Source: an uncultured Acidobacteriota bacterium (GTDB lineage Bacteria; Acidobacteriota; Thermoanaerobaculia; Gp7-AA8). From it: a stretch of DNA of 34,943 nucleotides. This document shows positions 9,427 through 32,479 of this stretch, piece by piece. A model generated the notes under the pieces. The model was not told the DNA's origin, ran no database searches, and was given only the letters and a program-made list of their open reading frames with translations. Made by a program: the position numbers and the translations under genes. Every line of letters starts with the position of its first letter. Within the stretch, counting starts at the first letter, position 1. The DNA is taken from assembly GCA_946887105.1 (NCBI GenBank), contig CAMPKJ010000021.1, forward strand, positions 1 through 34,943, in the 5' to 3' direction.

Positions 9427-12400
9427 TCAGTTCTCGGGGTCGAGCATCTTGCGGATCTCATCGAACGCTTGAAATACGGTCGTGAATTGCCCGTAGCCGA
9501 GGTAGCTGTGCGTGTCCGCATAGAGCGCGGCCTCGTAACCGGCGTCGACGATCGGCCCGACCCGCTCGAAGACCTGCAGCCCGGTGTAGGCGGAGTACTT
9601 CGTGAACTCGGTCTCGCAGACGGAGCAGGCCGGCGAGAAGTAGTTGTCCATGTCCGTGGCACCGGCCGCGCCGGCAGTCGATGGGAACCAGTAAGAGAGC
9701 TCGGCCCACTGGCGTTTGATGGTCCAGTATTGTCCCGGCTCCTCGTTGCGGAACACGCTGTCCCAATGGGCATCGGTGGCGCTGGAGAGCGCCCACTGCT
9801 GCACGATGTGGTTGTCCTGGAAGCGCGCCGACGATGTTCGATGACGCAGGAGACGCTCCAGCGCCACGCGTTGGAACATGGCGAACGGTTTGTTCTCGAC
9901 CTGATTGCTGCGCCAGATCACGCGCAGCACGCGATCGTCGTAGCTGAAGGTGTTGAACAGACGGACGCGGTTCTTGTTGTCGAAGAAGATACCGCGCCAC
10001 TGGCCACGCGTGGGCAGCACCTCCGGCTGATGGTTCGGAACGCCGAACGGCGAGCGGGTCATGCGCCAGCGCACCGAATAGAACTCGCGCTCATCGGTGA
10101 AGCGCAGCTTCATCGACTCGTCGCTGGTCTCGACCTGGTTGCGCAGTTTGCGCAGGTTGTTTTTCCAGAGCGCCTTCTCGACGAGACCCATCTTCGCGTC
10201 GTAGTCGTCGATCCACACGGCGTCGTCCGCGAAGCCGAACTTCTGGGGATGCGCTTCGCCCCACAGGGTCATGTACTTCGGATCGACCGGCACTTCCGCG
10301 AGCGCCTCGGCGGGCATGGCCGCCTCGTTCATCACAAAGCGGTCGATGACGTGGTCGACCATCTCCGGCCTCGAGATGGCACTGTGGACCGCGAGGTTAC
10401 CGAGACTGTGCGCAACGACGCTCACGCGCCGGGTCGACTTCTGGCGCCGCACTTCCGCGAGGTACTTGGCCATGGCCGGACCGACCGCAAACGCGCGGTA
10501 TTCATCCTCGGGATAGAGCAGGCCCGACCACGCCGACTGCACTGCTTCGCGAATGCCGCCGGACATGATCCCGGGCTGACCCGGCTCGCGGCCGCCGTAG
10601 TTGCTCGGCCAGGCCACGCCGATCGTATGCGCGCAATTCTTCACGCAGCCGTGCGCGTCATCGTCGTCCTTCTGCCGCCATTCGCCCTGCAGACGATGGA
10701 CGGGATGGCCGACCCAGTAGAGCCGCTTGAACATGGTCGGCAGGAAGATGTTGCGCATGGCCGAGTCGGTGACTTTGTAGCCGTGCACGACGACGTTGAC
10801 ATCGCGGACGGCGAGCGGCATCCGGCTGGCCCAATGACTCCATCCAGGGTTGTCATTCGCCCACGTGCGTTGGGCCTGATCCTCCAACTCGTGCGTGTCA
10901 TCGTTGTACCACTCGGGATTGCGCGGAATGGAGTCGAGATACGAGAGCGGCTTGAAGTCGTCGACTTTTTTCGCACGCGCGGTCAGATAAGTGATCCACT
11001 GACGCAGCGGCCGGATATCCGCACGCGATTCGTCGAAGAGCGTCCCCGCCGAAGTTCCGCCATCGGCTGCATATTCGAGCACGATCTTCGGCACGTTCTC
11101 GTAGTTGCCAGGCGTGCGGTTGCCGCAATCGATACAGCGCACCAGGAACTCGTACGTGCCGGTTGCGAGCGGCGGCAGATTGACGAATCCATCCGCGGTG
11201 GGTTTGCACTCTCCCCCACCTTCCGTGTGGATGAGCGTGTTCGTGGGCAGGCAGACGGGGATGGAGTCGTACTCGGGATTCGTGTCGCTGCCGACGATCT
11301 CCTTGACCTGCGCATTCGAGTATCCGAGGTCGCGGAGGTGATCTTTCCCGATGCGCAGCTTGCGTGCGATGGTCCACTTCACGTTGGGGCGATCCATGCG
11401 GATGCGCACTTCTTCGGAGCCGCCGCTTGGACGCCATAGTTTGTTCACGGTGATGCGCAGCGTGAAGTAGTCGGTGAGCGCCTTGTCCGCGGCGCCGCTC
11501 TCTTTCGGAGCGTCCGCCGCAAACTGCTTCAGGTCGTACCACGGGGCGGATTCGCAGAAGCCGAACGCGCGGCCTGTGCGCGCCGCCTCGCGATCGAGTC
11601 CGGCGATGTCGCTGTTGTTGTTCGAGTCGACGTCGAGACGCACCCAGCCGAGGCGGATTGCGCGCGGGACGCTGCGCAGCGAGCCGTTGTCGGAATCGAC
11701 GGCGGCATTCGCGACCAGATCCGTGTCCTCGTAGGTCTGGCCGGCCGGAATGGTGAAGCGTCCCTCGCCCCTCGCGACATTGGTCCAGGTGATCGGATAA
11801 CTGCGCGGCGGCCCCAGTCCGCCAGCGTTGCCGTCGCGATCGGGGAACAGTTTGTTGATGACCTCGACGGAGCCGGACAGGCCGCTGACCGGCGGGATCA
11901 CTTTGATGTTCACGTCGAGCGCTGCCTGCGAAGTGACCTTCTGCGGCGCGTCGACGGTGCCGTTGCCGCTCATGGTGATCATCACCGGATCGGCTTTCTT
12001 GATGATCACCACAGGCTTGAACGACGCCACGTGCAGGCCGGCACCGGCGAGGCTGGTCGCGCCGGTGGAAACGATGAAACCACCTTCCTGTCCGAGCGCG
12101 ATGCGGAAGCCGACGCCTTCGACCGTGCCGAGGTAGCGCGGCGCAAACGGATCGGAGAGGCTGAACGTCATCGCGCCGCCGGCCGTAGCCACGACCGCCG
12201 TCGTGCCGGTGATGTCGACGTCGCTCGCCGAGCCGTCGACGAGATGCGAGCCGATCAGCACCGGTGCCAGCGGGTTGCTCATGTCGTACACGTAGAGACC
12301 CGTGCCCGTGCCGAGCGCGCCCGCGGCATCGAGAGCCTGGCCGGTGCCGACCATCAGCGCGAGATCGCGATTGTCGATGCTGGTGAGCCGGACCGCGCGG

Positions 12401-15400
12401 CCGAACTCGAGATTGCCCTTCGACGGCGAGGCCGCCGCGCGCAGCAGACGCGGGGACGTCTCGGTCGGATCGACGATCACGAATGGCGTGCTGCCCGTTG
12501 CAATGACCAATGTGCGCGCGCTGCCGTTCACGAGGTATTGATCGGCCTCGAGATCCATGAGGTGCGCGCGGAAGCCGGTGTTCGGATCGGTGACGCGAAT
12601 GGAGTTGACGACCGCATCCTGTCCGAACCCGCGTCCCGCCACGATGCTGTCGAGCACCATGCGGTACCGCGTGGTCGGATTCGCGGACGCGTCCTCGTGC
12701 ATCTTCACGGCGCGTTGCAGGTCGATCACCTGAATGCCGTGCGGGTACGTGATCGTGTAGAGGAAGCTCTTGCGCAGCGCGAGCTTGAGCACGATGCCTT
12801 CTTCCGCGCTCTCGGTGAGCGTGACGATGGCCACGCGTTTCGGTGCGGCGGGATCGCGAACGTCGAACAGGTAGACATTCGACGGTCCCGGCGGATTGAA
12901 CTTGAGACCGGAGCCGATGGCCACGGCCGTGCCGCCCGAGATCACCGGCGACTCGGCCTCGGCATCGAGATGGGTCGGCATCCCGAGGACCGTGTGATAG
13001 CCGACTTCGCGGATGTCTTCGGGATCGGCGATGTCGTAGACCGACATCCATCCATTGCCGTTGCCTTGCCTGCCGACATACGCGTGATCGCCGATCACGG
13101 CCACGCCGGACGAGAAGAAGACGTCCGACGAATCGCCGAGCGGCGCCGGATCGATGGTGGTGAACGACAGCTCGCGGTCGGGGAAGTCGTTCCAGGCCGG
13201 CTGGCCGCTCTCGTTGACGTCCGTGTCGTGGATCGCGCCGCTGAGCTTCAGCGAATAGGTCGTGCTGAAGTTCAACCCGCCCACGGGAACGATCGTGATC
13301 GACGTGACCTTCGTCTCCGCCGGAGCGACGCGTAGATCCTGAATGACGATCGTTTGTCCCTGCGGGCCGACTGCGACAGCGCTGATCCTGTATGCCACGC
13401 CGCCGGTGCTGCTGGTGAATTGCAGCCCTTCGACGACATTCACGACCGGCTCGGTGAAGACCACCTGCGGCAGCACGTCCACGGCGATGCCGATCGCGTT
13501 CTGCTTCGGCACGAGCTTGCGCGTGATCCAGTCGGGACGCTCGCCGGGAATGCTGGTGTTGTTTGTCCCGCCGCCGGCCACGACCAGGAAGGTGTGATCG
13601 ATCTCCGTCGCCGGACCGCCGAGAGGATTGAGCGCGGTGGCCTTGATGGAGTAGGTCCCGGCGTTCCGCGGCGTGTAGAGACTGGCGACGACGTAGTCCA
13701 TCGGCTGTTCGCGGCCCATGGTGCCGTCGTCGCGACGGACCGAAAACTCCTCCCCATTCACGGTGGCGTTGAAGATCTCGCCGTCGGTGTTGTTGTTGAA
13801 CTTGAAGCCGATGAGCAGCGGCGTCTCGGCGGCGACCACTCCATCGATCGGTTTCCGCAAGAGGTTCTGGGTCTGGTCGAGCGTCATGACCACGACCTCG
13901 ACGTCCGGCGAAGGCGGCGGCGCCGTCTGCGCGGGGAACGTGAGGTTCACCTCCGCCGCGTAGCCGTAAGTGTCGTACAGCGCGCCGAAAACGTTCGCGC
14001 GCGTGTTGGAGACATTCGCCTCGAACGCCGTGCCGTATGCGGAGTCGTCGCCGAGGTGCGCTTCCACGTCGACCGTGCCACCGGTGTAATGCGAGTCGTA
14101 GAAGACGAAGTGTCCGTCGCCTTCGGTGACCGCGAATTCGATCGGTAGATTGAAGCCGTTCTCGTGTGTGCGCTTGACCATTGCGCCCGAGACCGGCTCG
14201 TAACGCGGCTCGGTCGCTCCCGGATCCCACACCGGCCGATAGACGTGCCCGGCCACCACTCCCTGCACCGGCAGGCCCGGGAACATCGCGTCCCACGTGT
14301 ACATCATCGAGAAGATGAGATCGGACGCGATGCCCATCGCCAGGCCGCCGAGGTCCGCTTTTGCGGTCCATGCGGCAACGGAGTCCTTGAATCCGATGAA
14401 TGGGAACGACGCGGTCACGACCTTGCCGTTGCCGTCTTCGAAGGCGTGATCGATGGTCTGGAAGCCGACCTGCCCATCGGGACCGTTGAGCCGCCGATAG
14501 ACGTAATAGAACGATCCCTCCGGCGCACCGGGCGGCCGCGGGAACACGAGATCCGCTTCCTTCTTCAGCGTCGGCTTCTGCTCGGAGGTGACCTTCAGGC
14601 CGCCTCCGAAGTGGCCGCCGGGAATGTCCGGCTTCTGCGGGAACGCGTCTTCGCCGAGCGCTTCGATCCTGAAGATCGCGCCCTGCTCGAGCGCGCCTTC
14701 GGGGATGCGCAACTGCACGCCGCCCGGTCCCTCGACGATTCCGCCGCCCGGGCCGATGGCGGTGCGGCCGCTTCCGTCCGTGGCCACGAACTGGCTGCGC
14801 TCGAACGTGACCACGTTGCCCTTCGGATCGGTGATCGTGACCACCAGCCGATCGTTGATGGTCGCGGGGAACGTGCCGGTGAAGCTGCCGTCGTTGCCGA
14901 CCGTGAACGACACCACGATGCCGTTCCCGGCGTTGACGATCATCACGCGCGTGCCCGGCGGCAGCGATCCGGCGGGCGCGCTGACGGTGACCAGTCCATC
15001 CGCACCAGGCATCGTGAACGTGACCTTCTGCGTGTCGTAGTTCGGCGGCACGTCGGGTGTCGTGGTGAACGTGACCGGCGCGAGCGTGATGATGCCGCCA
15101 TAGATGTCGCCGAGACCGCTGACGGTGACGGTGTACGTCTCCCCGGCCACGAGTAGAGACTGCGGAATCGCGGCCACCGTGCGTCCGCTGCTGGAGAAGA
15201 CGAAGCGCAGTGGAATGGCGGTGCCGGCGGAGTTGCGAAGCTTGATGGTGGTGTTGTTCGCGGAGGTGGTGCGGATCGGTGCGGTGGCCACGATCTCGAT
15301 CTGCGTCGAGGCCGGAACGTGCAGCGCGCCGTCCGCCGGCGTGATGGTGGCCGTGGTTTCCTGCGCGTTGAGATTGATGCTCGGCGACGCGGTCTGCCCC

Positions 15401-18400
15401 GACACCACACTCACCGTGACGTCACCGGACAGCGAGGTGTTCGGCACCAACGCGGAGAACCTCACGTTGCCTGCGGGCGCGATGGTGTCGAATTCTCCGG
15501 CGGCATTCGTGAGCGCGACGAACGGGAATCCGTCGATGGTCACCACCGCCTGCATCGACGACGAAGGCAGTCCGACGCTGCCCGCGACGACACTCCACGG
15601 CACGTTGACGCGATAGAAGACGTAGCGGCCATCGCGGCGAATGCCCGGAAGCGTCCCGAGATCCTTCGACACGAAATGGTCGCCAATGCGATCGGTGGCG
15701 GCGACGACCATGACCTTCGGCACGCCGCCGACGCGCTCCACGCGAGCGATGACGACGGTTTCTTCGTCCGACATCGTGCCGGCCGGAATGGAGAGCACGG
15801 CGGAGTTGCCGAGCGAGACGCCGCCGAAGTCGAGCAGCACTTCCGCGACCGGCTGCGCGCTGGTCGTCGACGGCAGGAAGCTCGAGAGCACGGCCGGGGT
15901 CGCGGAAATCGCAAGATCGTCGGGCAGCGAGCCGGCGGGAATGGTCACGTTGACGTCGCCCGCATCGAGCGTGAGCGCCTGCGAACCGCCCGTGCGGCCG
16001 CGCACCGACTCGCGTCCCGCCAGGATGTCGAGGTGCACGCGTCCTTCCACGAGCGCGCCCGCCGCGAAGCTGCGCGACGGCACGATCGGGAACTGCGCCG
16101 AGAGATCGGTGCCTTCGCGGAACAGCACCAGATCCTGCGTGCGCTTCTCTTCCGACGCGATCTCGCCGGTGGCCAGCGTGAACGTCTCGGTGACCTCCGC
16201 CTGCACGACCGTTCCGGATGGCAGCGGCTCGGACGAATGAACGGTGAGCGTGCCGACCGCGGAGCCGCCGGTCGGCGGGAGCGTCGGCGGATTCACATTG
16301 CCGCTGCTCGTGGCGGTGTCCGGAATCGGTTGCATGGCCACGCCGGACAGGAGCTCGCCCACGACCGGAGCGGGCACGTTCGCATCGTCTGCGAAGACGA
16401 GCGCATACGCGCCGGGCTGCGGCAGCGATGCACGCGCCACACCGCCGTCGCGTATCACGTTCGTTGCGGTCACGATCCAGGCGTGCGTGGCCGTGTCGTA
16501 GCGAACGAGATGGAACGCGAGCACTTCCGGCGCGTTGGCGATGTCGTTCGCAATCGCGATCTCGAATGGCACGATTGCGACGACGTCCGCGCGCAGTTCG
16601 AGCGCCGCGACGGGCGCCCAGCCGAGTGGCAACAGGTTCGGCAGGCCTTGCGGGCCGAGCGCCGTGAGGCGCATCGGCGTCGTCGCACCAATGGCGCCGC
16701 CCGGAATGGTGACGGTGACGCCGGCCGCTGTGATCGTTCCCCCGCTCGCGGAGACGTTCACTTCCGGGCCGAGCGGCGTCAGTCGCGCATCGACCGGCAC
16801 GGTACCGACCGCCGACTCAATTGCGACGGAGCGCTCGACGGATGTCATCGGCACCGCGGCATCTGCCGGCGCTTCGATGATGAGCACGAGGTTCTGGTCA
16901 TTCGCCGGAAGCGCGTAGCGTCCTCGAATATCCGTAATCGTGTTGCGCGCGGGCTCGCCGGCGATGCCGACGCGTGCGTTGGCGATCGGGAGGCCGGTCA
17001 CGTCCGAAAGCACGAGACCGGTCACCGCGCCGTCGGAGGTGACGCGCAGTTCTTTTGTCACGGTGGTGCTGTTGCCGGCGGTGTCGGTGGCAACGACCGC
17101 GAGCAGGAGGATCGTGCCGGGTTCCGCCGTTGCCGGCGCCATCACATCCACTTCGAACGGCGGCGCGGTCTTCGTGGCCACCACTGCGCCGTTGAACGTG
17201 AACACCACATCACGGATGGCCAGGTTCTCCTGCACGTTCGCCGAGACGAACGCGGGCCGCGTGCGGGTGATGAGCTGCGGTGCATCAACGATCACGATCG
17301 GCGCGATCGAGTCTCGCGTGACCAGCGTCGAAGCAGTGGCCGTGCGCGCGAGCGCATCGGTCGCTGTTGCGATCAGCGTGTTGTCGCCATCGGCCAGCGC
17401 CACATCTGCAGCGCTGAAGATCTTCTCGTCGGCTGTCGCGCCGGCGGACAACGTGGCCACGACCGTTCCGACCTTCACGGAAGCGAGCGTCGTATCGCGC
17501 ACGGTCCCCGTGACAGTGGTGGTGGCCAGCTTCGTCAGCGAGCCTGAAGTCGGCGCGGTGATGGCGATGATCGGTGTGGCGAGATCGACGACGACCTCGT
17601 GGCTGAGCGTTTTGACGTTGCCGGCGGCGTCGGTGGCGACGAGCGCAAAAACGTGCGGGCCTTCGACGAGCGCGGAGAGCTCGGCCTGCCACGCTTCGCC
17701 GTTGATGGTGGCGCTGACGCCGTCGACCGTGAGCGTCGTTGCGGTCTCATCGCGCAACGTGCCGGAGACGATCACCGGCATCGCGCCGATCACGGCACGA
17801 AGCGCGGGCGAGAGCACCGTCACCTGCGGCGCGACGGTATCGCGCGTGACGGCGACGCTCTTCGTGCTGACGTTGCCCGCCTGATCGGTGGCTTCGAGCG
17901 TGACGCTCTTCACGCCGTCGAAGGTCAGCGGCACCGACGTCGAAAACGCATTCGCGGTCAGCGCCAGCGGCGTGCCGTCCAGCCGCAGAGTGACGGCCGA
18001 GAGGTCGGTCACGGAGCCGGCCAGCGTGAACGCCGCCTCCTTCGTCACCAGATCGGGTTGCGGCGACGTCACGTTGATGACCGGCGCGGCGGAGTCGACA
18101 TTCACGGTGACACTGGCAGTACCGGTGTTTGCCGCCGCGTCGGTCGCGGTCGCGGTGATGACGTACGAGCCCTCCAGCGTGGGGATGGTCGCGGTGAATG
18201 CGCCGTTCACGGCCGTGGTGACGACGCCGTTCACGTCGAGCATGACCGGAGACGCGTCAGTGACGGTACCGGCGACGTTGACCGTGGCGCCGCTGATCCA
18301 CGCACCCGCGGCGGGCGATGTGATCGTCACCGCCGGTGCAACGGCGTCGGCGGTGAACGACGCGCTCGCGCTGGCGGAGTTGCCGGCCCAGTCCAGCACC

Positions 18401-21183
18401 GAGATGGTGATGGTGTGCGCGCCGTCGGCCAGGGCCGTGGCGATCGTTCCTGTCGCCGCTGCCGGCGTGATGGTGAATGCGGATGTGCGATCGACGTTGT
18501 CGATGGCGATGACCACCCATGCCGGCGCGATGCCGCTCCCGTCGCCGTCGCTGTACGTCATCGCGAAGTCGTACGGTGCCGGACCGACGTAGCCGGTGTG
18601 CGCGGGCGCATCGATCTGCACGGTCGGCACGATGGTGTCGACCGTGAAGATCTGTTCGACGACCGGCGCCGCGTTGCCGGCCCGGTCGAACACGACGATG
18701 CGCAGGACGTGTGGTCCTTCGGCGAGCGACTGTTCGGCCGCGAGTTGTCCGGTGGCGCCATCGACGGCCATCGTGAAGCGATCGGTGCGCTCCTCTCCGT
18801 CGACATAGATCTTTGCGCTTTCGGTATTGACGCCGCTCAGTGCATCACTCCAGCGGATGACGAACTGCGGCGCGCTGGAGGCGACGTAGCCATCAGGCGC
18901 GGGCGCCTCGACTTCCACGGTGGGCGGCGCGGTGTCGACCTCGAAACGCGACGTGGCCACGCTCTCGTTGCCGGCCAGATCGCGGATGACCGCGCGCAGC
19001 TGATACGTGCCGTCGGTGAGCGGTGCATTCGGCGGAACGAGTCCGGTGGCCTCGATGGCCGTCTTCGTGACGTAGGAGGTGATGTCCACTTCCGGATCGC
19101 TGCCCTGCTGCAGGAAGAGGCGCAGCGACTCGACGTCCACGCCCGTGCCGTTCGGATCGTCGTACGTCACGCGCAGCGGCGGCAAGGACGTGTTGACGAA
19201 CGTGCCGTTGGCAGGAACCGCAACGCTGAGCTGCGGCAGGACGGTGTCCACCGTGAAGGATGCGGGCAGCGTCATCGCGTTTCCGGCGCGGTCGGCGAAG
19301 CGAATCTCGAGCGTGTGCGCGCCATCGACGAGCGGCGCGACCAGGGCGCCCGAGGCGAAGTCGGGACCGGCGGACAGAACGTCGGTGACCGCGGCGCCAT
19401 CGACGCTCAAGGCAACGGAGGACGGATCGATGCCGCTGCCGCCGTCTGCATACGTGACCGTGACCAGCGGCGTGGCCGTATTCACTCGGGCGGCAGGCGC
19501 GTCGATCGTACCGGTGGGTGCGATGGTGTCGACGAGGAACGAGGAGGTGGTCGCGCCGAGGTTGCCCGTCGTGTCGCGGATCTCCGCGGCCACCGTGGTC
19601 GTTCCTTCGACGAGCGGTGTCGCAATCTGACCGGTCGCCGACGTGGCGGTCTTCGTGAAGAGCGTGGTCTGATCGACCGTGTTGACCGTCACCTTCAGCG
19701 AATCGGTGAGCACGCCTTCGTTATCGCCGTACTGCAGATCGATCTGCGGCGTGTTGTCGTTGATGTTCGCGCCGGCCGGCGGTGCGATCACGGCGATGGC
19801 CGGGACGGTCGTGTCGACGATGAACGTGACACTGGCACTCCCCTCGTTTCCGGCGCGATCGTCGACGGTCGCGGAAAACGTGTGCGTGCCGTCCGCGAGC
19901 GCGGTGAGTTGTGCGGTGGCGCCGACATCGCTCGTGGTCAGCGGAGCGGCGCCGCCGTCGATCAGCGCGGCGGCGGCGGTCGATGTCACCACTCCCTGCG
20001 CATCCGACCACGTCAGCGTGACCGTGACGTCGCGGCTGCCGATGCGCGCTCCGGCAGAAGGCTGCGCGATGGTGACGGCGGGGGCGGTGACGTCGACGTT
20101 GAACGAAACGGATGCGGATCCAGAGTTGCCACCCGCGTCGCGAATCGATGCGGTGATCTGGTTGGGACCTTCGGGAAGGATGCCGGGATCGATCGTGGCG
20201 GATGCGGCGGTCGCGGTGATGCGGTCCGCCGGAATGGCGACGCCGTTGACCTGTGCGTCGAGCGTGGTGAGGTCGAGGGCGATGTCGTCCGCGTAGCTCA
20301 GCGTCACACCCGGCGTTTGCGTGGCCAGGTAGGCGCCGGTCTCCGGCGTCGTGAACGCCAGCGCCGGACTGGTGAGATCGACGCGGAACTGGCCGGTGAC
20401 CTCGCTGACGTTTCCGGCGCGATCGGCGATCGATGCTTTGTAGTGGTGGATGCCTTCGGTCAATGGCCCGTCGTCGGCAATCTCTCCCGAGGCTTCGTCG
20501 GAACGGCGCGTGAAACGCTCGCTCACGTTGACGTCGTCGATGAACACGCGCAGCGACGCCAGGTCGACACCTGACGCGGCCGGCTCGTTCGTGCCGACCG
20601 GATCGGAGTACTGCACGATCATCTCGGGCGTCGCGTCATTGGTCGTGGAGCCGGACGCGGGGCGGACCCAGAGCAACGGCGGCGCGGTCTTATCGGCCGG
20701 CGCGCCGTAGATCCACATCGTCAGATACGAGGTCGGCTTGCTGGCCAGCGTGACCGCCAGCGAGAGCGTGGCCGGTTGCGGCGTCGGCAGGGTGATGGTG
20801 CGCTCATACGATGCCGCGTTCTGGTTGAAGTCCGACTGCGTCAGGAGCTCGGTGCCGTTGATCACAACGGTCGCGGACGAGACGCGGAACGTGCCGTCCG
20901 GCTCGCCGTTCTGCACGAAGAGGCGGAACGGAGGCTTCAGCCACGCCGGAACGGCAACCGTGGCGGTGTAGACGTCTTTCGGGCCGGTGGTACGAACGTA
21001 TTTACGCGGACCGAAGAACGCGAGCGTGGTGACGGCGTTCGATTGCGGAGTGCGCTGGGTGGTGCGCTGTGCAGGGCGCGAGCCGGTCTGCGGCCCTGGC
21101 GTGGCGAACGTCTGCACCGGCAGCAAGGCCAGCAGCAGCGTGGCGATCGACTTCCGCACTTCGCGTTTTGTCATGTTCGTCAT
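9427..21183 (-). CDS. Giant secreted multi-Ig protein with C-terminal alpha/beta-hydrolase domain
   Basis: A 3918-residue protein. The ATG at 21183 lies 11 bp after the upstream giant gene's stop; an in-frame ATG at 21174 is the alternative. Residues 1-27 are a Sec signal peptide. After a beta-rich N-terminal region come 13 Ig-like modules (about 163-1384), each opening with D-x-x-x-P. A carboxypeptidase-regulatory-like unit follows (about 1385-1460), then a section with four ZU5-like IPxGA/PAGS motifs and a Big_5 unit (about 1480-2175), another peptidase-regulatory-like unit, and a second Big_5 (about 2541-2680). A likely LVIVD-type beta-propeller (about 2685-3060) precedes a beta region and an alpha/beta-hydrolase domain (about 3458-3695) with H3467-G-Y and AHS3593LGN. 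The last 220 residues are unassigned. The modules suggest a long surface stalk presenting an esterase-like domain; the substrate is unknown. Confidence 0.88.
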   Translation of the reverse strand: MTNMTKREVRKSIATLLLALLPVQTFATPGPQTGSRPAQRTTQRTPQSNAVTTLAFFGPRKYVRTTGPKDVYTATVAVPAWLKPPFRLFVQNGEPDGTFRVSSATVVINGTELLTQSDFNQNAASYERTITLPTPQPATLSLAVTLASKPTSYLTMWIYGAPADKTAPPLLWVRPASGSTTNDATPEMIVQYSDPVGTNEPAASGVDLASLRVFIDDVNVSERFTRRSDEASGEIADDGPLTEGIHHYKASIADRAGNVSEVTGQFRVDLTSPALAFTTPETGAYLATQTPGVTLSYADDIALDLTTLDAQVNGVAIPADRITATAASATIDPGILPEGPNQITASIRDAGGNSGSASVSFNVDVTAPAVTIAQPSAGARIGSRDVTVTLTWSDAQGVVTSTAAAALIDGGAAPLTTSDVGATAQLTALADGTHTFSATVDDRAGNEGSASVTFIVDTTVPAIAVIAPPAGANINDNTPQIDLQYGDNEGVLTDSLKVTVNTVDQTTLFTKTATSATGQIATPLVEGTTTVAAEIRDTTGNLGATTSSFLVDTIAPTGTIDAPAARVNTATPLVTVTYADGGSGIDPSSVALSVDGAAVTDVLSAGPDFASGALVAPLVDGAHTLEIRFADRAGNAMTLPASFTVDTVLPQLSVAVPANGTFVNTSLPPLRVTYDDPNGTGVDVESLRLFLQQGSDPEVDITSYVTKTAIEATGLVPPNAPLTDGTYQLRAVIRDLAGNESVATSRFEVDTAPPTVEVEAPAPDGYVASSAPQFVIRWSDALSGVNTESAKIYVDGEERTDRFTMAVDGATGQLAAEQSLAEGPHVLRIVVFDRAGNAAPVVEQIFTVDTIVPTVQIDAPAHTGYVGPAPYDFAMTYSDGDGSGIAPAWVVIAIDNVDRTSAFTITPAAATGTIATALADGAHTITISVLDWAGNSASASASFTADAVAPAVTITSPAAGAWISGATVNVAGTVTDASPVMLDVNGVVTTAVNGAFTATIPTLEGSYVITATATDAAANTGTASVTVNVDSAAPVINVTSPQPDLVTKEAAFTLAGSVTDLSAVTLRLDGTPLALTANAFSTSVPLTFDGVKSVTLEATDQAGNVSTKSVAVTRDTVAPQVTVLSPALRAVIGAMPVIVSGTLRDETATTLTVDGVSATINGEAWQAELSALVEGPHVFALVATDAAGNVKTLSHEVVVDLATPIIAITAPTSGSLTKLATTTVTGTVRDTTLASVKVGTVVATLSAGATADEKIFSAADVALADGDNTLIATATDALARTATASTLVTRDSIAPIVIVDAPQLITRTRPAFVSANVQENLAIRDVVFTFNGAVVATKTAPPFEVDVMAPATAEPGTILLLAVVATDTAGNSTTVTKELRVTSDGAVTGLVLSDVTGLPIANARVGIAGEPARNTITDIRGRYALPANDQNLVLIIEAPADAAVPMTSVERSVAIESAVGTVPVDARLTPLGPEVNVSASGGTITAAGVTVTIPGGAIGATTPMRLTALGPQGLPNLLPLGWAPVAALELRADVVAIVPFEIAIANDIANAPEVLAFHLVRYDTATHAWIVTATNVIRDGGVARASLPQPGAYALVFADDANVPAPVVGELLSGVAMQPIPDTATSSGNVNPPTLPPTGGSAVGTLTVHSSEPLPSGTVVQAEVTETFTLATGEIASEEKRTQDLVLFREGTDLSAQFPIVPSRSFAAGALVEGRVHLDILAGRESVRGRTGGSQALTLDAGDVNVTIPAGSLPDDLAISATPAVLSSFLPSTTSAQPVAEVLLDFGGVSLGNSAVLSIPAGTMSDEETVVIARVERVGGVPKVMVVAATDRIGDHFVSKDLGTLPGIRRDGRYVFYRVNVPWSVVAGSVGLPSSSMQAVVTIDGFPFVALTNAAGEFDTIAPAGNVRFSALVPNTSLSGDVTVSVVSGQTASPSINLNAQETTATITPADGALHVPASTQIEIVATAPIRTTSANNTTIKLRNSAGTAIPLRFVFSSSGRTVAAIPQSLLVAGETYTVTVSGLGDIYGGIITLAPVTFTTTPDVPPNYDTQKVTFTMPGADGLVTVSAPAGSLPPGTRVMIVNAGNGIVVSFTVGNDGSFTGTFPATINDRLVVTITDPKGNVVTFERSQFVATDGSGRTAIGPGGGIVEGPGGVQLRIPEGALEQGAIFRIEALGEDAFPQKPDIPGGHFGGGLKVTSEQKPTLKKEADLVFPRPPGAPEGSFYYVYRRLNGPDGQVGFQTIDHAFEDGNGKVVTASFPFIGFKDSVAAWTAKADLGGLAMGIASDLIFSMMYTWDAMFPGLPVQGVVAGHVYRPVWDPGATEPRYEPVSGAMVKRTHENGFNLPIEFAVTEGDGHFVFYDSHYTGGTVDVEAHLGDDSAYGTAFEANVSNTRANVFGALYDTYGYAAEVNLTFPAQTAPPPSPDVEVVVMTLDQTQNLLRKPIDGVVAAETPLLIGFKFNNNTDGEIFNATVNGEEFSVRRDDGTMGREQPMDYVVASLYTPRNAGTYSIKATALNPLGGPATEIDHTFLVVAGGGTNNTSIPGERPDWITRKLVPKQNAIGIAVDVLPQVVFTEPVVNVVEGLQFTSSTGGVAYRISAVAVGPQGQTIVIQDLRVAPAETKVTSITIVPVGGLNFSTTYSLKLSGAIHDTDVNESGQPAWNDFPDRELSFTTIDPAPLGDSSDVFFSSGVAVIGDHAYVGRQGNGNGWMSVYDIADPEDIREVGYHTVLGMPTHLDAEAESPVISGGTAVAIGSGLKFNPPGPSNVYLFDVRDPAAPKRVAIVTLTESAEEGIVLKLALRKSFLYTITYPHGIQVIDLQRAVKMHEDASANPTTRYRMVLDSIVAGRGFGQDAVVNSIRVTDPNTGFRAHLMDLEADQYLVNGSARTLVIATGSTPFVIVDPTETSPRLLRAAASPSKGNLEFGRAVRLTSIDNRDLALMVGTGQALDAAGALGTGTGLYVYDMSNPLAPVLIGSHLVDGSASDVDITGTTAVVATAGGAMTFSLSDPFAPRYLGTVEGVGFRIALGQEGGFIVSTGATSLAGAGLHVASFKPVVIIKKADPVMITMSGNGTVDAPQKVTSQAALDVNIKVIPPVSGLSGSVEVINKLFPDRDGNAGGLGPPRSYPITWTNVARGEGRFTIPAGQTYEDTDLVANAAVDSDNGSLRSVPRAIRLGWVRLDVDSNNNSDIAGLDREAARTGRAFGFCESAPWYDLKQFAADAPKESGAADKALTDYFTLRITVNKLWRPSGGSEEVRIRMDRPNVKWTIARKLRIGKDHLRDLGYSNAQVKEIVGSDTNPEYDSIPVCLPTNTLIHTEGGGECKPTADGFVNLPPLATGTYEFLVRCIDCGNRTPGNYENVPKIVLEYAADGGTSAGTLFDESRADIRPLRQWITYLTARAKKVDDFKPLSYLDSIPRNPEWYNDDTHELEDQAQRTWANDNPGWSHWASRMPLAVRDVNVVVHGYKVTDSAMRNIFLPTMFKRLYWVGHPVHRLQGEWRQKDDDDAHGCVKNCAHTIGVAWPSNYGGREPGQPGIMSGGIREAVQSAWSGLLYPEDEYRAFAVGPAMAKYLAEVRRQKSTRRVSVVAHSLGNLAVHSAISRPEMVDHVIDRFVMNEAAMPAEALAEVPVDPKYMTLWGEAHPQKFGFADDAVWIDDYDAKMGLVEKALWKNNLRKLRNQVETSDESMKLRFTDEREFYSVRWRMTRSPFGVPNHQPEVLPTRGQWRGIFFDNKNRVRLFNTFSYDDRVLRVIWRSNQVENKPFAMFQRVALERLLRHRTSSARFQDNHIVQQWALSSATDAHWDSVFRNEEPGQYWTIKRQWAELSYWFPSTAGAAGATDMDNYFSPACSVCETEFTKYSAYTGLQVFERVGPIVDAGYEAALYADTHSYLGYGQFTTVFQAFDEIRKMLDPEN
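10100..10810 (-). other. Alpha/beta-hydrolase (DUF676/DUF900-like) domain at the end of the giant protein
   Basis: Within the 3918-residue protein, VNVVVHGY (H3467-G-Y, an oxyanion-hole-type motif) is followed about 125 residues later by VSVVAHSLGNLAVH, a nucleophile elbow with S3593. This order and spacing fit serine esterases or lipases of the alpha/beta-hydrolase fold. The acid and base of the triad are not assigned with confidence; WGEAHPQ and the WIDDYDAK segment downstream are candidates. An insertion with CVKNC lies between the two motifs. Confidence 0.75.
12010..13130 (-). other. Putative LVIVD-type beta-propeller segment
   Basis: Repeated units of the form VAVxGxxAYV...LxVYDxxxPxxPxxxG appear several times: SVYDIADPEDIREVG, YLFDVRDPAAPKRVA, YVYDMSNPLAPVLIG and FSLSDPFAPRYLG. 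Units of this type make blades of LVIVD-repeat propellers in secreted bacterial proteins. At least four such blades are seen, with a divergent middle section. Such propellers usually serve in binding. Confidence 0.6.
17045..20697 (-). repeat. Array of 13 Ig-like modules in the giant hydrolase-bearing protein
   Basis: Thirteen tandem modules of roughly 80-105 residues each begin with a D-[TLVSAK]-x-x-P phrase (DKTAPP, DLTSPA, DVTAPA, DTTVPA, DTIAPT, DTVLPQ, DTAPPT, DTIVPT, DAVAPA, DSAAPV, DTVAPQ, DLATPI, DSIAPI). Most carry an internal DxAGN before the last strand. They are diverged in sequence, so the array is old rather than freshly amplified. Such modules form elongated, rod-like stalks. 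Confidence 0.85.
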
Positions 21184-21194
21184 CTGGATCGGTC

Positions 21195-24050
21195 TCAATT
21201 CGTGAGGGTGATGGCGAGCAGTCCGCCGTTGATGGTGGCGCCGCCATACACGGTGCCGTCGTTGCGGGCTGGAACGACCTGGAAACGCACGGTCGATGGG
21301 AGCGCGGCGGTCACGCCCTGCGTCGAGTACTCGACCGTGATCGAGCCTCCTTGCGCGGTGAACCACTTCCAGTGCGTTCCACTCGGAGACGCGTTGCCGT
21401 TCGCGATCGTCCCGCCGGCGGAGCCGTTGTAGCAGCAGCCGGTGAACGTTGCGCTGTTGGCCACGGTCACGGCGACCGGAGTCCCGTCGGGCACGACGTT
21501 GCCCGCTGCATCGCGGAGGTTCGCGAACGTCACCGTGGTCGTCCCCGGCACTTTCAGAGTGGCCGGACCGCTGCCGGTGGCCGACGCGACGCCGTTGATG
21601 CGCACCGGTGCGGTGCCGAGCGCGCGCGTGGTGAGCACGTTGTTGGCCGCACTGACCGGCACGACCTGCACCGTGGCGATCTTCACCTCGCCATTGCCGG
21701 CGGCGATGCTGGTGCCGTCGTAGACCGCATGCACTTCGCCGCCGGAGACGGTGAAGACTTTGAAGTTTCCATTGTTCGGAGCGGGCGTGCCGTCGTCGGG
21801 ATTGGTGCCGGACGGAAGGATGGTCCCGCCGGCCGATCCGTTGTAGCAGCAGCCGGTGAAGGTCGCGCCGCTCACGACGCTGATCCCGATCTTCGAGCCG
21901 TCCGGCATCGGCACACCTTCGGCGCTCTTGAGGTTGGTGATGGTGATCTGCGAGAGCTGCGACGGCGCGTGCGCGGTGAGGTTGCCGGGCGACACCTGCA
22001 CGGTCACGCTGGCCGGAGCCATGAGCCGCACCGGCACGACGCCGATGGCCTGCGTGCTGATCACATTGCCCTGCGCGTTGACGCTCACCACGGCCACGTT
22101 GGCGATGCGCTCCCCTTCCGAGACCGTCAGGCCCTGCGACGAGTACTGCACGACCACCTGGCCGTTCGTGATCGCGAAGACTTTGAAGTTGCCGTTGTTC
22201 CCGGCCGTCGTACCGCCGAGGATCGCCCCGCCCGCCGAGCCGATGTAGCAGCAGCCGCTGTACGTGGCGCCGCTCACGGCCGACACTCCGATCAGCGTTC
22301 CCTCCGGCACCGGACGGCCGGCCAGATCCTTGACGTTGCTGATGGTGATGGTGGCGCGGTGATCGTTGCCATCCGCGAAGATCGCGGTCGGGAACGCCGC
22401 GGCCGTGGCGGAGGTGGTGCCGACGGTCTGCACGGGCACGATGCCCAGCGCGAGCTGGCTGAGACGCTCGCCGTTTGCGCCGGCCTGCGCCAGTACGACG
22501 TTTGCGGTCTTGGTCTCGCTCGGTCCGGAAACGATGCCCTGGTTTCCGTAGGTGACGTCGATGCCGCCGTCTTCGATGGTGAAAACTTTGAAGGTGGCGG
22601 TCGGCGAAGGTTCGCCATTCACGATCTGGCCACCGATCGAGCCGATGTAGCAGCAGCCGACGTACGTAGCGCCGCTGGCCGCGCTGACCACGACCTTCGA
22701 ACCATCGGGCAGCGGATTGCCGTGCGTATCGAGGATGTGCTCGAAGCGCACGCGCGTGGTGGAGAGATTGCCGTCGCCGAAGATCGAAACGTCGTCGGCG
22801 AAGCCGCGCGCGTTCATCGGCCCGAGGATCTTGATCTGCGCGGCGCCGATCATGCGCTGGTCGATGCGTGCGCCGGAGGCGTCGCCCGGCAGCACCTGCA
22901 CCACCGCGGTCTTTTCCTCGCCGCTGTTCACCTGCTGCACGCCCTGCTGTGTCCAGGAGGTGCGGAAGAAGTTCGAGACCAGCGGGAAGTATTTGTAGAT
23001 GCTGCTGGTCGGCGAGACCGTGCCGTCCGCAATCGTGCCGCCGGCCGAGCCGACGAAGCAGCAGCCGGAGATCGACGCGGAGTTCGCCGCCGAAACGAGC
23101 AGCTTCGCGCCGTCTGGAATCAGTCGCGCCCGCGCGTCATGCGCGTGGTGCACGTCCACCTGCACGATGGGCGGATTCGGGAAGACATACGGAACGGTCT
23201 GCGGCGACACTCCCACCTCGGTCGTGGCCGCGCCGGTCATGGCGATGGCCGCCGTACCGAGCGGCGTCTGCGACGTGCGCGCGCCGTTTGCGTCGGCGGG
23301 CAGCACCTGGATGAGCGCCGTCTTCACTTCGCCGACGGTCGACGAAACATTGACCGATGAGTACTCCGCCTCGACGACCCCGCCGGTGACGGTGAAGACT
23401 TTGTAGATGCTGCTGGTGGGCGACGTCGTACCGCCGATGATGTCGCCGCCGGCGGAGCCGGCGAAGCAGCAGCCGATGATCGAGCCGCCGTTCGCGGCGG
23501 TGAGCAGCACCTTCGTGCCGTCCACCACCGGATTGCCTGCTGCGTCGCGCACCTGCACGCGGATGTGCGCGCGGCGATCGACGCGGTCGGCATACATCGT
23601 GGCGGGATCGACGTGCACGATGGCCTGATCCACCGGCGCGCGCACGTTGATGTCGAGCGACGACACGGCCTCGGTGCCGAGTACGTTGTCATCCGCATCG
23701 GCGCCGAGGACCTGCACGATCGCCAACGCGCCGGAGCGTGCGGCCGGAACGACCGTCGTGCTCGAGTACGTGGCCGTGACCTCGCCTCCGTTGATGGTGA
23801 AGACGCGGAACGCGGCGTGGTTCGCGGCGGGAACACCACCTTGGATCTCGCCGCCCGCGGAGCGGAATGCCGCGCCGAGGCCGTTCGTGGAGGCCATGTC
23901 GGCCACGGCGAGAGCGACTTTGCCGCCGTCCGGCACCAGCGTGCCTTCGCTGTCGCGAATGTTCGAAATCGTGATGGTGGTCGCGCCGGGTGACGCGGCA
24001 CCGCCGGCGATCACCGTCGGCGGATCGGCCGTGACGTCGGCGCTGTGCGC
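21195..24050 (-). repeat. Seven tandem C-terminal repeats, six with a vicinal Cys-Cys motif
   Basis: The repeats follow the pattern ITIxNxxDxxGxPVPDGxKVxVSxxSGATxxGCCYxGSAGGxI, then FKVFTVxGGxVxxxY and GExKxAxVQVxPxxA (shown with variable positions as x). Cys-Cys pairs lie at residues 2985-2986, 3121-3122, 3257-3258, 3391-3392, 3525-3526 and 3663-3664, so the period is 136, 136, 134, 134 and 138 residues. The first repeat (near 23800-24000) has the SAGGEI part but no cysteines. The framework resembles invasin-type Big_1 domains with an inserted Cys loop; that assignment is inference. Confidence 0.85.
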
Positions 24051-27000
24051 GACGTACGTGCGATCTTCTTTCGGCACGATGTAGTACGTGCCGAGGAACT
24101 GCGAGCCGTCCGTGAAGACCGCCTTGACGGTGTAGGTCCATCCGTCGCGAACGAAGCCGGCGTCGGAGGCGAACAGCGTCAGCGTGGTGCCGGAAGTGAC
24201 CGGGAAGTTGATCTGGCCGGTGGCGTTGTTGAGGAGCGCCGAGCCGGCGTCCTGCGCGACGCCGAGCGGCGGCTGGTTGCTGCGCGTCGAACGTGTGAGC
24301 GGACCGGTGAGATCGATGTAGCTGATCGTGCGCGTCACGCCGTCGCCGATGGCCAGGCTGACGGTGAAGACGGCGTCGAGATTGCCGTCGGACGTCAACG
24401 CACCGGCGGCGCTGCCGACGCGGTCGACGAGGATGCCGTCGAAGTGCAAGGTCGTCGAGCCCTCGCTCGGCGGCAGCGACGGAGTCTGCCGGATGCGGAT
24501 CGTGGCCGGCTCGCTGCGGTTGCCCACTGCATCGACCGCGACCACCGTCAGCGCGTCGTCGATCGCTCCGGCGATGAAGATCGAGAAGCCGCCGTCGCTG
24601 GAAGCCTTCACGCTCGAGAAGGCGCTGCTGACCGTGTTCGTGATCTCGACGGTGGCATTCGGTTCGACCGCGCCGGAGTACCCGAAGACCAGCGAGCTGC
24701 CGTTGTTCGGCGGCTCCGCGGTCATGCGCGTGATGTCGGGAACCGGCGGAGCGGTACGGTCGACGATCACCACGCGCGTCGCCTGCGCGGTCTCGCCGCT
24801 GGCGGCGGTGGCATCGACGGTGATGGTGAGCGGACCTTCCGGCGCGGCGGTGAGCGTAAATGTCGCCTCGTAAGGCGCGGTGTTGTCGACGATGGTCTCG
24901 CCCGCGGCGGTGAACTGCAGCGCAGTGACCGGCTCGCTCACGGTGACGGCGGCGGAGACGGCGTCGCGCACCTGCAGGTTCGCCGCGGGACTGGTGAACG
25001 TGACCACCAGCGGCCGGTTGTTGACCAGCGCCGTGACCGGCGCGGAGCGCGCGCTGGTATTGCCGGCGACGTCCACCGCCTGCGCACTGAACGCGTGCCA
25101 GCCGTCCGCGAGATTCTCGGTGTTGTAGCTCGCGGACAATCCCGCCGGCAGAACATCGACGAAGTTGCTGTCTTCGACGAAGAGATCGACGCGCGCGATG
25201 CCCGATGTCGCGTCGCTCGAAGAAGTGCCGATGGTCAATGTGCCGGTGAGCGTCGCGCCCTGGCTGATGCCGGTCAGCGCCGGAACGGACGGCGCGGTCG
25301 CGTCGAGCTTGAACGTGCTCGAGACGAAGCCGCGGTTCGTGGCGCGGTCTTCGACGGACGCCTCGACGCTGTGCGTTCCTTCCGCGAGGTCAACCTCGGG
25401 CGTGAAGTAGAACGTCGCGCCGGAAGTCTGCGGAGTGACGCTGGTGCCGTCCAGCGTCATTGTGGCGGTCGCGCCATTGACGCCGCTGGTCGGATCGACC
25501 GCGTTCACCTGAATCTGCGGACGGAGATTGCGGCCCCACGAGTCGTTACTCGGCGACGAGACGGTCAGCACCGGCGCGATGGTGTCGGTGGTGGCGAACG
25601 TCGACGTGAAGTTCTGCGTCTGGAGATTGCCGCTGAGGTCGCGCGCACCGCTGGCCTTGACGGTGTAGATGGAGTTGTCGAGCAGCGGCGTGGACGGCGT
25701 GAAGACGATCGTCGCCGGCGACGTCATGGCCGCGGTTCCGGCTACGCTGGCCGCACCCTTCTCCAGCGTCACGATCGCCGCCGCGTCATTGGTGGCGTGC
25801 AGCGGCTCGTCGAACGTGACCGTGATCTCCGCGTTCGCAGCAACCTGAATCGCGCCGCCGATCGGCACGACGCTCGCGACCTTCGGGCCGCTCGTATCGA
25901 TCGTGTGGAACGTGCTGGTCACCACTTGCAGCGGATGGCGTCCAAACACATCGGTGACGCTCGTGCTGACGTTGACGGTGAGCTCGGACGAATCGGGCCA
26001 CGTGCCGGTGAGCGTGACCGTCTTCTTGTCGGTCGAAAGCGCCGCCGATGCTCCGATGGTGCTCGTCCCTTTGCGTACCGAAATGCCGAATGCCGATGCG
26101 AGCTGATTGCTGAACGTCACCGAAATCGGCTGCGTCAGCGATACGCCGATCGTTCCCGGTGCGGGCGTGACCGAGACCACCGTGAGCGGCTGGTCATCGA
26201 GGACGATGGTTCCGAGATCGAGCACCTGGCCGTTCGTGTCGATCGAGCCGCTGCTGAGCGCGAGCCCGGTGGTGATGGAATCGTCGATGCGGACCGTGAA
26301 GGTGCTGAACGGCACGCCGCGCGCCGTGAAGCGGCCGTCGTTGCCGGCCTGCACGGTCACGCTGCCGCGATTGCCGTCCAGTTTCAGAACCACGTTTGCG
26401 CCGACGGCGGGCGTCGTGTTGTCGGCGCGCAGCACCAGGCCGGTGACAGTGCCGCTCGGCTGCACCTGCACGGTGATCTGTGCAGTGCCGCCGGGTGGAA
26501 CCTCGCCATTGGCGGTGCCGTACAACGTGAACTCGCCCGACTTCGCCTTCAGTGCGGCGGTGAACGGACCGGCCAGCACCTGCGGCAGCGCAAACGTGCC
26601 GTCCGCCTGCGCCTGCACCGTGAAGCTGTACGGGAAGCCGCCGTTGCCGGTAATGGTCACGTCGCCGCGAATCGGATTCCCCGATGAATCGAGTGCCAGG
26701 CCACTGATCGCGCCGACGCCATTGAGCGTCAGCGTGACGTCGGTGGTCTCCGAGCCGACGACATCCGCGACGCCGCCTGCTTTGTCGATGCTGCCGAGGA
26801 CTTCGGCGGACAACGTTGCGAAGCCGGCGGGCACGCGATCGAACTCGAACGCGCCTTCCGTATCCGTGGTGGTCTCCAGCTTCGCCCCACCGACGCCGCC
26901 GACTTGAACGGTGACTAGGGAAAGCGGCGCGGCCGCGGCACCCACCGCGGTCACGACGTGGCCCGTGAGCCGGCCGGAATCGCGCAGCGCGACGTCGAGC

Positions 27001-30000
27001 GTCAGCGAACCGCCTTCGCCTTCGAGATTGCCGCCGTTCGTCCCAGTGAGGAAATTGCCGCTGAGCGTCGCGGTGGCGTTGATGCGTCCGACCGGCACTC
27101 CGTCGATGGAGTAGCGGCCGGTCGAATCGGTGTATGTCAGCGTGTCGAAGTTGTTGCCGCTGGTGATGCGCACGTGTGCGCCGGGTTGCGGCGCGCCGTT
27201 GCTGGTGACGATTCCTTCGACGCGTCCCACGCCCTGCGCGACGATGTCGACTTCGACGATCTCGGCTTCCGTTGCGAGCGTTCCGACGGCGACGCCGGAG
27301 CGCGCGGTCTGCGGATCCTGCGCCTCGAGACGGAACGAACCCGCGGGAACGTAATGGAACTCGAAGGCGCCGATGTCGTCGACGCCGTCCGTCGTGGCCT
27401 GACCGACCGTACGTCCACCCACCACGAGCTTCACGCTGCCGAACGGAATCGGCGTCGTGCCGTCGGCGCGGCGGAAGTGACCTTTGACCGTGCCGGTGGT
27501 GGTCAGCGAAACGGTGAGCTCGAGGATTGCGCCCGGACCGGTCAGCGTCGATGAAGCGCGTCCGCCGCGCGCGAAGACGTCGCTCGCCTGCGCGGTGACC
27601 GGCCCTTCGAAGACATTCTCGAATGTGGCGACGCCGCCGTTCGAAGCGCCGATGGCCGCTTCGTACAGTCGATTGGGGAACTGCGTTTCTTCCAGGCGGA
27701 TGAACGCGTTCGGCACCGGCTGTCCGGCGCCGTCGACGACGCGCACCAGCACGGTGCCTCTGCCCTTGAGCCGGATGTCATGTGTGACGTCCTGGGCCGC
27801 TTTGAGATAGACCGTGTCGCGGCGAAGTCCGCCGGTGACCGCGTCACGCGCCGTCACCGTGTAACTTCCCTCCGGGAAGATCTTCGCGAACTCGTAGTGA
27901 CCGTTCGCATCCGTCGCTACCGTCACTTCCGGCAGCGGACCGACGGCCGTGACTTCCACTCCCGCGCCCGCGGGCGTGACGCCGTCCGGCAGATAGACGG
28001 TGCCGGAGAGGACGCCGGAGATCGTGTTCACCAGCTTGAGCTGGAAGTCGACGGTGCCGCCGTTTGCGGTGAGCGTGCCGCTGGCGCCGACCGACGTCGT
28101 GAAGAATGGATGCGTGGCCGTGACGCTGATCTGTCCGACGTTGACGCTGGTGAAGCGGAACTTGCCGTTCGAGTCGGTGCGGATCCGCTGCGACTGTCCG
28201 GGCACGAGGCTGCACGTGTCTTCATCGAAGATCTTCGAGCGCAGACGGATGTCGGCGCCCAGCGCGGGCGTGCCGTCGGGATTGAGCACCGTTCCGGTGA
28301 CGGTGCCGGTGCCGGGGAAGATCAGCACGCCGAACGCGGTCGCGCCGTCGCTCATCAGCGAGACGCTTGCGTCGGCCTGATCCCAGGTCTCGCCCATCGT
28401 ACGCAGCGCGCGCGCTTGCGCGGTGCCGAGGCGAACGTTCGTGAAGCGGACTTTCCCCTGGCTGTCGGTGGTCTTCGCCGCACATCCGCATGGATTCCAG
28501 CACGTGCCGAGGAGATCGACTTCCTGATTGGCGACCGGATTGCGATTCGCATCGAGCAGCGTGAACTCCGCGGTGCCGACGCCCGACAACGTGATGTTGA
28601 TGTTCTGCAGGACCTGGCCGGGCTGACTGAGCAGCACCCTGGTCGCGCCGTTGCGCAATCCATCGCGTGACTGCGCGCGGATGAGCTGCTCGGTGGCCGG
28701 CTTGATGAGCAGTCCCACCAGCTCGTACGTGCCGTCCGCATTGGTCAGCACGCCGCGATCGTCGACGGATACGACGATGTCGCCCGCGGGCGCTCCATCC
28801 GGGAAGCGGACCGTGCCGCGGACCGTGCCGTAGCCGTCGTTGCCGAGCACGATGGCGATGTCCTGATTGATGATGTCGCCCGCGGCGGCGATGCCGTGCA
28901 CGAAGCCGCGGTCGCGCGAGTTGAGCAACGCGTCGATGCGATATTCACCGGTGGGCAGCCCGGTCATCAGATAGCTGCCGTTCGACTCCGTCGTCACCAC
29001 GTCCACCGGAATGAAATCGAGACCGTTCAACGCCTTCACGCGATAGACGACCTGCAGCCCGGGCACGGCCTGGATGTCGCTGCCGTGCACGGTGCGCACG
29101 ATTCCTTTGGCCGTCACGGTTCCGCCATCGAGCGTGAGATCGACCACGGCGGCGGTACCGGCGCGATCGATGCGGCCGAAGCTCTTGCCGAGCGATGCGT
29201 CTTTCACGGCGCGCACCGTGACCGCGCCGACCACGATGTTGTCGATCTGGTAACGGCCCTGCGAGTCGGACATCGCGCTGCCGTGGCTCTGCGAGTCGGT
29301 CTGGCTGAGCGCGATCACCGTCGCGCCGCTCACCGGCGATCCGTTCAAGGAACGGACGATGCCGGTGACCGAGCCGCGGCCGAGCATGGCAATGTCGAGC
29401 ACGATCTGCTCGCCCGGCGCGCGCACGGAGCTGCTGACCTGCCGCAGCGCTCCCGTGCCCGGATCCTTCGTCGCCACGAGGAACGCCATCCCGCACTGGT
29501 CCTGACGCACGTAGCGCAGTTCGTAGCGGCCGTCGTTGTTCGTGCGGACGTTGGTCAGGCCCTTGTAGTCGCCGAGCGGCGGAATGCAGAGGATCTCCGG
29601 ATTCTGCGCGTACGTGACGTTCGCGTCCGGGATCGGAGTTCCATCCGCGCTGAGAATGCGGCCGGAGACGACCGCACCGATGTCTTCGAGACGCGATCCG
29701 AGCGTCACCGTCGCCGCCGGTCCGAGCGCGTTACGCAGGTCGCCGATGCCGCTCACGCTCATCTGCGTAGCGACGTACGGTCCTTCCGGTTGTTCGAGCG
29801 ATGCGAACACGAGGCGTCCGGAGAGCTGCTTCTTCGCGCTGACCACGCGATTGTTCGCGATCGTGTAGTTCACGACGTTGCTGCTGGTGGTCGTGCTCAC
29901 GATGCGATCGAAGAGCAGCACGGTCTGGAAGCCGAACGGCGGCGCACCACTGACTGTCTCGGGACCGATCACGTGCGCCGAGATCAGTTGCGGGCCTTCG

Positions 30001-32423: not shown

Positions 32424-32438
32424 TCGAGAACCTTCTTT
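32421..32438 (-). promoter_or_regulatory. Ribosome binding site and TTG start of the first giant gene
   Basis: On the - strand AAAGAAGG (32438-32431) precedes the TTG (32423-32421) by seven bases. This is the best-placed Shine-Dalgarno before the signal peptide and decides the start. Confidence 0.65.
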
Positions 32439-32479
32439 CCGCCGGGACGTGGCCGTTGTACTTGGACGAGAGCGGCAAA

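Follow-up and report, generated by a model that had tools for sequence, protein, structure and literature searches.

The window analysed here is a stretch of 34,943 nucleotides from an uncultured Acidobacteriota bacterium (GenBank assembly GCA_946887105.1, contig CAMPKJ010000021.1, positions 1 to 34,943). On its minus strand, the open frame at 21195-32489 encodes a protein of 3764 amino acids (aa), giant protein 1, whose C-terminal end, the tail, consists of seven repeats (R1-R7) of 134-138 aa (Table 1). The part before the tail, the stalk, has a probable signal peptide and CarboxypepD_reg, Big_5, Big_13, Big_7 and Big_6 domains, as assigned with Pfam. We set the start at aa 33, following the database copy P0001, which is giant protein 1 of the window apart from this start and one further residue. 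A short loop in the repeats changes in concert, and it does so in two families of giant proteins.

A preliminary description of this DNA, made from its letters alone, had reported six GCC(F/Y)xGSxGGxI motifs with a period of 134-138 residues. An exact motif search agrees: GCC[FY]xGSxGGxI matches exactly six times in giant protein 1, at aa 3006, 3142, 3278, 3412, 3546 and 3684, with successive spacings of 136, 136, 134, 134 and 138, and each of the protein's six adjacent cysteine pairs (CC) sits inside a match. We also recover the cysteine-free first repeat, R1, to which R2-R7 are 24-37% identical, and the count of 12 paired cysteines among 18 in the mature protein; the open frame has 20, with C5 and C41 lying before or in the probable signal peptide (P0001 is without C5).

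Table 1. Features of giant protein 1 and its neighbour in the window
Feature	Positions	Strand	Details
Giant protein 1, stalk	24036..32393	-	aa 33-2818; Pfam; aligned in 97 full-length relatives
Repeat R1	23634..24035	-	aa 2819-2952; loop without Cys
Repeat R2	23226..23633	-	aa 2953-3088
Repeat R3	22818..23225	-	aa 3089-3224
Repeat R4	22416..22817	-	aa 3225-3358
Repeat R5	22014..22415	-	aa 3359-3492
Repeat R6	21600..22013	-	aa 3493-3630
Repeat R7	21198..21599	-	aa 3631-3764; C-terminal end of the protein
Variable loop of R2, ANGGSIIGCCFAG	23457..23495	-	CC codons 23466-23471
Variable loop of R3, ANSASISGCCFVG	23049..23087	-	CC codons 23058-23063
Variable loop of R4, ASGATYVGCCYIG	22641..22679	-	CC codons 22650-22655
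Variable loop of R5, VSGATYSGCCYIG	22239..22277	-	CC codons 22248-22253
Variable loop of R6, VSGATFTGCCYNG	21837..21875	-	CC codons 21846-21851
Variable loop of R7, ANSATFTGCCYNG	21423..21461	-	CC codons 21432-21437
Giant protein 2	9427..21183	-	3918 aa; Ig-like domains; esterase-like DUF676 stretch near C-terminus

The tail repeat looks like a divergent invasin-type immunoglobulin (Ig) domain. R5 modelled alone reached a predicted local distance difference test score (pLDDT) of 98.1, and the CC pair is placed at the turn of a short hairpin. The idea of an undescribed Big_1-like variant holds to that extent, and a clear profile match does not accompany it: when 37 repeats were tested against the Big_1 (PF02369) and Invasin_D3 (PF09134) profiles, the best E-values were 7e-4 and 9e-4, and neither family is among the Pfam matches of the whole of giant protein 1 at E-values up to 1. 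The repeat had not been recognised as a named domain, and R5 of the window indeed matches no Pfam family at E-values up to 1. When Pfam and NCBIfam were run on the whole protein, no family had its best stretch in the tail, and none of the stalk's families matched the seven window repeats scanned singly. A sequence search against solved structures gave two hits only, at E-values of 0.4 and 0.71, which we judged to be chance. Compared with the Ig domains of Big_1 and of invasin and intimin, the window repeat differs in its length of about 135 residues and in a hairpin loop that is variable and changes in concert; giant protein 1 differs from invasin and intimin also in that no outer-membrane barrel family, the mark of inverse autotransporters, is among its Pfam matches. 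Our searches of the open-licence literature brought up no paper on this protein family.

A search with the tail found at least 76 proteins including P0001; the match covers 97-100% of the tail in 75 of them and 27% in the remaining one. Since at least 75 proteins besides P0001 match it, the seven-repeat tail is not a product of chance. This search scored the 1712 candidates that shared most words with the tail, and two further protein searches, one giving the best 120 of 263 hits and the other scoring 7985 candidates, extended the list to P0188; all of these counts are lower bounds. The window protein and P0002-P0138 make up a set of 138 proteins: exactly seven repeats are present in 104, a smaller number in 3, and no repeat in 31. 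Sorting by repeat number alone, we call proteins with seven or eight repeats, the window's kind, family 1 and those with five or six repeats family 2.

At the place of the window's loop, relatives carry CC, two cysteines in the form C-x7/8-C (C..C), or no cysteine, and the CC pair is not a constant of the family. The residues between the two cysteines of the 167 C..C loops found among 75 proteins number eight in 127, seven in 39 and nine in 1. With P0187 and P0188 left out for their short, unlike loops, R2-R7 of 118 family 1 proteins give 708 loops (232 CC, 282 C..C, 192 Cys-free and 2 with one Cys), and 34 family 2 proteins give 203 (55 CC, 18 C..C, 130 Cys-free and none with one Cys). CC and C..C loops occur together in none of the 152 proteins. 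Exactly two cysteines are present in 587 of the 589 Cys-bearing loops, which points to selection, and the only two single-Cys loops among 911 across both families are both in P0110. This occurrence in twos is the best evidence here that the adjacent cysteines would bond with each other as a vicinal disulfide. In family 1, an aromatic residue lies in the last seven loop positions of 214 of 232 CC loops, 174 of 194 loops with neither CC nor C..C, and 150 of 282 C..C loops.

These counts bear on an explanation in which the CC pairs are themselves the function, as a thiol switch, a metal site or interchain crosslinks. The regular pairing of most mature cysteines would suit such a device, as would the force-sensing role proposed for the vicinal disulfide in the A2 domain of von Willebrand factor (PMC9210963). 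With so many family 1 loops that are Cys-free or have C..C instead of CC, we consider it very improbable. We reject a conserved redox pair as the general function because the same two loop types are common; the preliminary description had suggested redox or ligand switches or chain crosslinks and had treated conservation of the pair in homologs as decisive, and the homologs vary.

We compared loops within and between proteins in the 104 proteins with exactly seven repeats, including P0076, which has short unlike loops. Loop identity is 0.524 between different repeats of one protein, 0.308 for the same repeat in different proteins, and 0.285 for different repeats in different proteins. The corresponding scaffold identity is 0.325 within a protein and 0.495 for the same repeat between proteins. 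Recent repeat duplication was rejected as the source of loop likeness, because orthologous scaffolds are closer to each other than are the repeats of one protein. Loop likeness exceeds that of the scaffold in 100 of the 104 proteins, and a smaller set of 75 proteins, with P0001 and P0076 left out, gives the same pattern (75 of 75). To allow for kinship, we restricted the permutation of loops to proteins with scaffold identity of at least 60, 70, 75 or 80%, and the observed loop likeness was above all 100 shuffles at every threshold; at 80% or more (52 proteins), it was 0.533 against 0.490 (standard deviation 0.0025), with 0 of 100 shuffles as high.

The concerted change can also be followed column by column. 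We took 459 pairs of proteins, not independent of one another, with scaffold identity of at least 0.70, and called a column uniform when 5 of 6 repeats agreed. Columns uniform in both proteins of a pair differ between the two in 206 of 1562 cases in the loop versus 5 of 8063 in the scaffold; the share of differing cells in the same pairs is 0.483 in the loop and 0.232 in the scaffold. P0026 and P0090, whose scaffolds are 0.82 identical, illustrate this, with SGFC in all six loops of one and NGAC in all six of the other. In P0053/P0064, CC has been lost or gained in all six repeats while the tails remain 71-82% identical by block, so loops change also without tail exchange. The loop of R1 is 0.462 identical between proteins versus 0.242 to R2-R7 of its own protein.

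The repeat was also found in other giant proteins by genome search, and the protein search returned mostly relatives of 2.2 thousand aa with six repeats, which are family 2. Here, leaving out one five-repeat protein from the means, loop identity is 0.668 within versus 0.439 between proteins, and the loop exceeds the scaffold in 33 of 33. Examples are RPWYRRSDGGYSNG (P0139), INWYRRSDGGCCNN (P0158), ADTQFTQPDGTGAIR (P0168) and LGNCNFRDRNGFCIN (P0184); most other repeats of the same protein carry close versions of each. As a rule, the copies in a repeat protein either evolve independently or are homogenised over their full length. In these two families, it is a loop of about 13-15 residues that stays alike in all six copies, and the rest of each copy remains distinct.

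Sameness of this kind might arise without function, if short gene conversion between neighbouring repeats spread loop variants. Several observations fit this neutral homogenisation. Loop identity drops with growing repeat distance (0.596, 0.533, 0.493, 0.433 and 0.398), and partial states exist, as in P0064/P0134 and P0162, with a change shared by neighbouring repeats and absent from the rest. Same-codon use is slightly above expectation for repeats at distance 1 (0.607 versus 0.541) and distance 2 (0.605 versus 0.534), and in the window's loops the same codon is used at 88 of 111 same-residue positions (z 2.1, 12 of 400 shuffles as high). Against it, there is no clear loop codon excess over the tail's own codon usage in the other six of the seven genes analysed as DNA (z -1.4 to 1.7), an excess, where there is one, is matched in size by the sequence that follows the loop (window z 2.0, L022 z 2.7), the scaffold protein sequence a few residues off is not homogenised, and the occurrence of cysteines in twos points to selection. 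We rate purely neutral homogenisation as distinctly improbable.

The 23-base identity between 21424-21446 and 21838-21860, pointed out in the preliminary description as suggesting recent duplication or gene conversion, is exact and is no more than protein likeness explains: over the loop and following motif, R6 and R7 have 16 positions with the same residue, and 11 of these share a codon, with 10.1 expected from tail codon usage. Because codons show little homogenisation, selection on the protein probably keeps the loops alike. Selection alone, or older conversion on which selection then acted, explains the data better than recent wholesale conversion of loops; recent gene conversion finds weak support in the DNA as a main cause, and we keep it as a possible seed. 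The differences between proteins would reflect diversifying selection. A diversity-generating retroelement is an unlikely mechanism for the loops. RVT_1 was found in only two of five relatives' genomes, on other contigs than the tail (G001, C268 and C222 with the tail on C151; G502, C234 with the tail on C86), and was absent from three, including G334, the source of P0139 with its near-identical loops.

Stalk and tail do not always match in descent. Of the 104 proteins, 97 are full-length and seven shorter ones were left out, giving 4656 pairs. Stalk identity is at least 0.85 in 84 pairs, and in 23 of these the tail is less alike by more than 0.2; the 23 fall into seven sets by shared members, in our own grouping. 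Stalk and tail identities are, for example, 0.96 and 0.48 in P0019/P0026, 0.94 and 0.49 in P0044/P0112, and 0.93 and 0.50 in P0056/P0132; a pair with no such drop is P0064/P0134 (0.96 and 0.95). The best breakpoints lie at window aa 2674-2993, around R1, in 20 of the 23 pairs, and R1 may act as an adaptor where the exchanged parts join. We built FastTree trees of the stalk (73 proteins, two short ones of the 75 left out) and of the tail scaffold minus loops (75 proteins). The number of changes required for the C..C class is 10 on the stalk tree versus 2 on the tail tree, and for all loop classes together it is 18 versus 8. Given these counts and the mismatch, the tail apparently moves as one piece. 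It appears to be exchanged as an allele, presumably between strains. In P0161 (4584 aa), CarboxypepD_reg stalk domains are joined to the WYR-loop tip of family 2, so tips seem to move between stalks.

Other modules can take the place after a related stalk, namely Laminin_G_3 in P0097 (3397-3534) and P0114 (2774-2896), and PA14 in P0113 (3849-3983). Laminin_G and PA14 are modules often found in ligand-binding proteins. Such modules on related stalks, tail exchange and the loop copies together point to a recognition tip. The reading we favour, at even chances of being right, is that the repeats form a C-terminal recognition tip that is polymorphic and presents one ligand-contact loop in six copies. 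The tip would stand at the C-terminal end of a long secreted stalk, probably displayed at the cell surface, with each of R2-R7 an invasin-type Ig domain offering one variable hairpin loop. As the six loops of one protein are versions of one sequence, the tip would bind a repeated or polymeric ligand six times. The ligand would most likely be a cell-surface or matrix glycan; that the tail binds glycan is a reasonable guess and not a result. A vicinal CC would be one way to make a rigid, flat, non-polar loop end beside an aromatic residue, with C-x7/8-C loops and aromatic loops free of Cys as alternatives to it. Specificity could change in two ways, by a swap of the whole tail or by a new loop spreading stepwise along the repeats.

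The main rival is homotypic recognition or a lattice, in which the six loops of one protein copy contact those of another, for cell-cell kin recognition or in a surface layer. All loops would then have to match each other and hence change together. The presence of Laminin_G and PA14 modules on related stalks speaks more for ligand binding, and we regard homotypic contact as possible, though unlikely. The favoured recognition tip could be extended to a recognition code of Acidobacteriota, for self/non-self or partner recognition, in which an exchangeable tip of seven Ig domains shows one barcode loop on six of them. The loop would be rewritten in all copies when specificity changes, and vicinal disulfides, disulfide-closed loops and aromatic turns would be alternative chemistries. 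We offer this extension tentatively and think it rather doubtful.

Several points weigh against the recognition tip. All evidence is computed from sequence, and like loops alone are no proof of ligand binding, since homotypic contact or conversion could give the same. R1 is without the Cys pair in all 104 proteins, and its role is not explained by a ligand-contact tip. Four of the 104 proteins (P0075, P0076, P0110 and P0111) have no loop likeness above scaffold. In the fold matches of the repeat, Ig domains of adhesins score level with those of enzymes and S-layers, and no anchor or secretion system was identified for giant protein 1. The stalk tree carries long-branch warnings, and the proteins and pairs are related, so the counts are not independent events. 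Finally, the relatives come mostly from metagenomes, and assembly chimeras may account for some of the stalk/tail mismatches; the clusters of P0019 and P0026, with 5 and 11 member sequences, weigh against this.

Known systems share parts of this arrangement. In the SusD-like protein Bt1762, a vicinal disulfide contacts a fructan branch (PMC7782687). As proposed for the CC loops, two neighbouring cysteines of a secreted bacterial protein there give a glycan a non-polar surface; Bt1762 is a different protein, and the passage on it mentions no repeats. TraA, the polymorphic kin receptor of myxobacteria, is likewise a polymorphic surface recognition protein with specificity types. Compared by description only, it differs in that its abstracts do not mention repeated specificity loops. 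The architecture of TraA also differs from that of giant protein 1. Phage tail-fibre adhesins have a swappable tip with short hypervariable loops between glycine-rich conserved stretches; giant protein 1 differs in being a cellular protein whose six loops on six domains change together.

The two families amount to a natural set of scaffolds on which loops are interchangeable, and they offer a lead, open to testing, on possible surface or partner recognition by Acidobacteriota. Nature has in them also run an experiment on loop design, with an adjacent Cys pair now taking the place of other designs and now giving way to them. A family 2 carrier is available in culture: P0139 comes from Luteitalea sp. 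TBR-22, a cultured Vicinamibacteria isolate from duckweed. The tail is rare in the genomes searched. In a sample of 396 genomes of the phylum, with at most two candidates scored per genome, 3 matched, one of them with a second-family protein only, and within one order 4 of 149 genomes did. Wherever it was found, the long tail occupies one place per genome.

No repeat was found in the stalk relatives L004, L007 and L008, which have closed giant protein 1 frames, or in L003, L005 and L009, whose frames run off the DNA end. Laminin_G, Calx-beta or PA14 domains occur in further stalk relatives, of which two bear the label Polyangiaceae; some of these cases rely on precomputed labels and come from the best 120 of 263 hits. 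The stalk relative P0099 (4031 aa) has 82 cysteines and no repeat tail; the other counted relatives have 0-20. Giant protein 2 starts with an ATG at 21183, 11 bases past the stop of giant protein 1, and its relatives adjoin giant protein 1 in the related loci L001, L002, L004, L007, L008 and L021. Elsewhere in the window, a GDSL lipase gene lies at 5639-7132 on the plus strand, overlapped on the opposite strand by a 520-aa open frame with no Pfam match.
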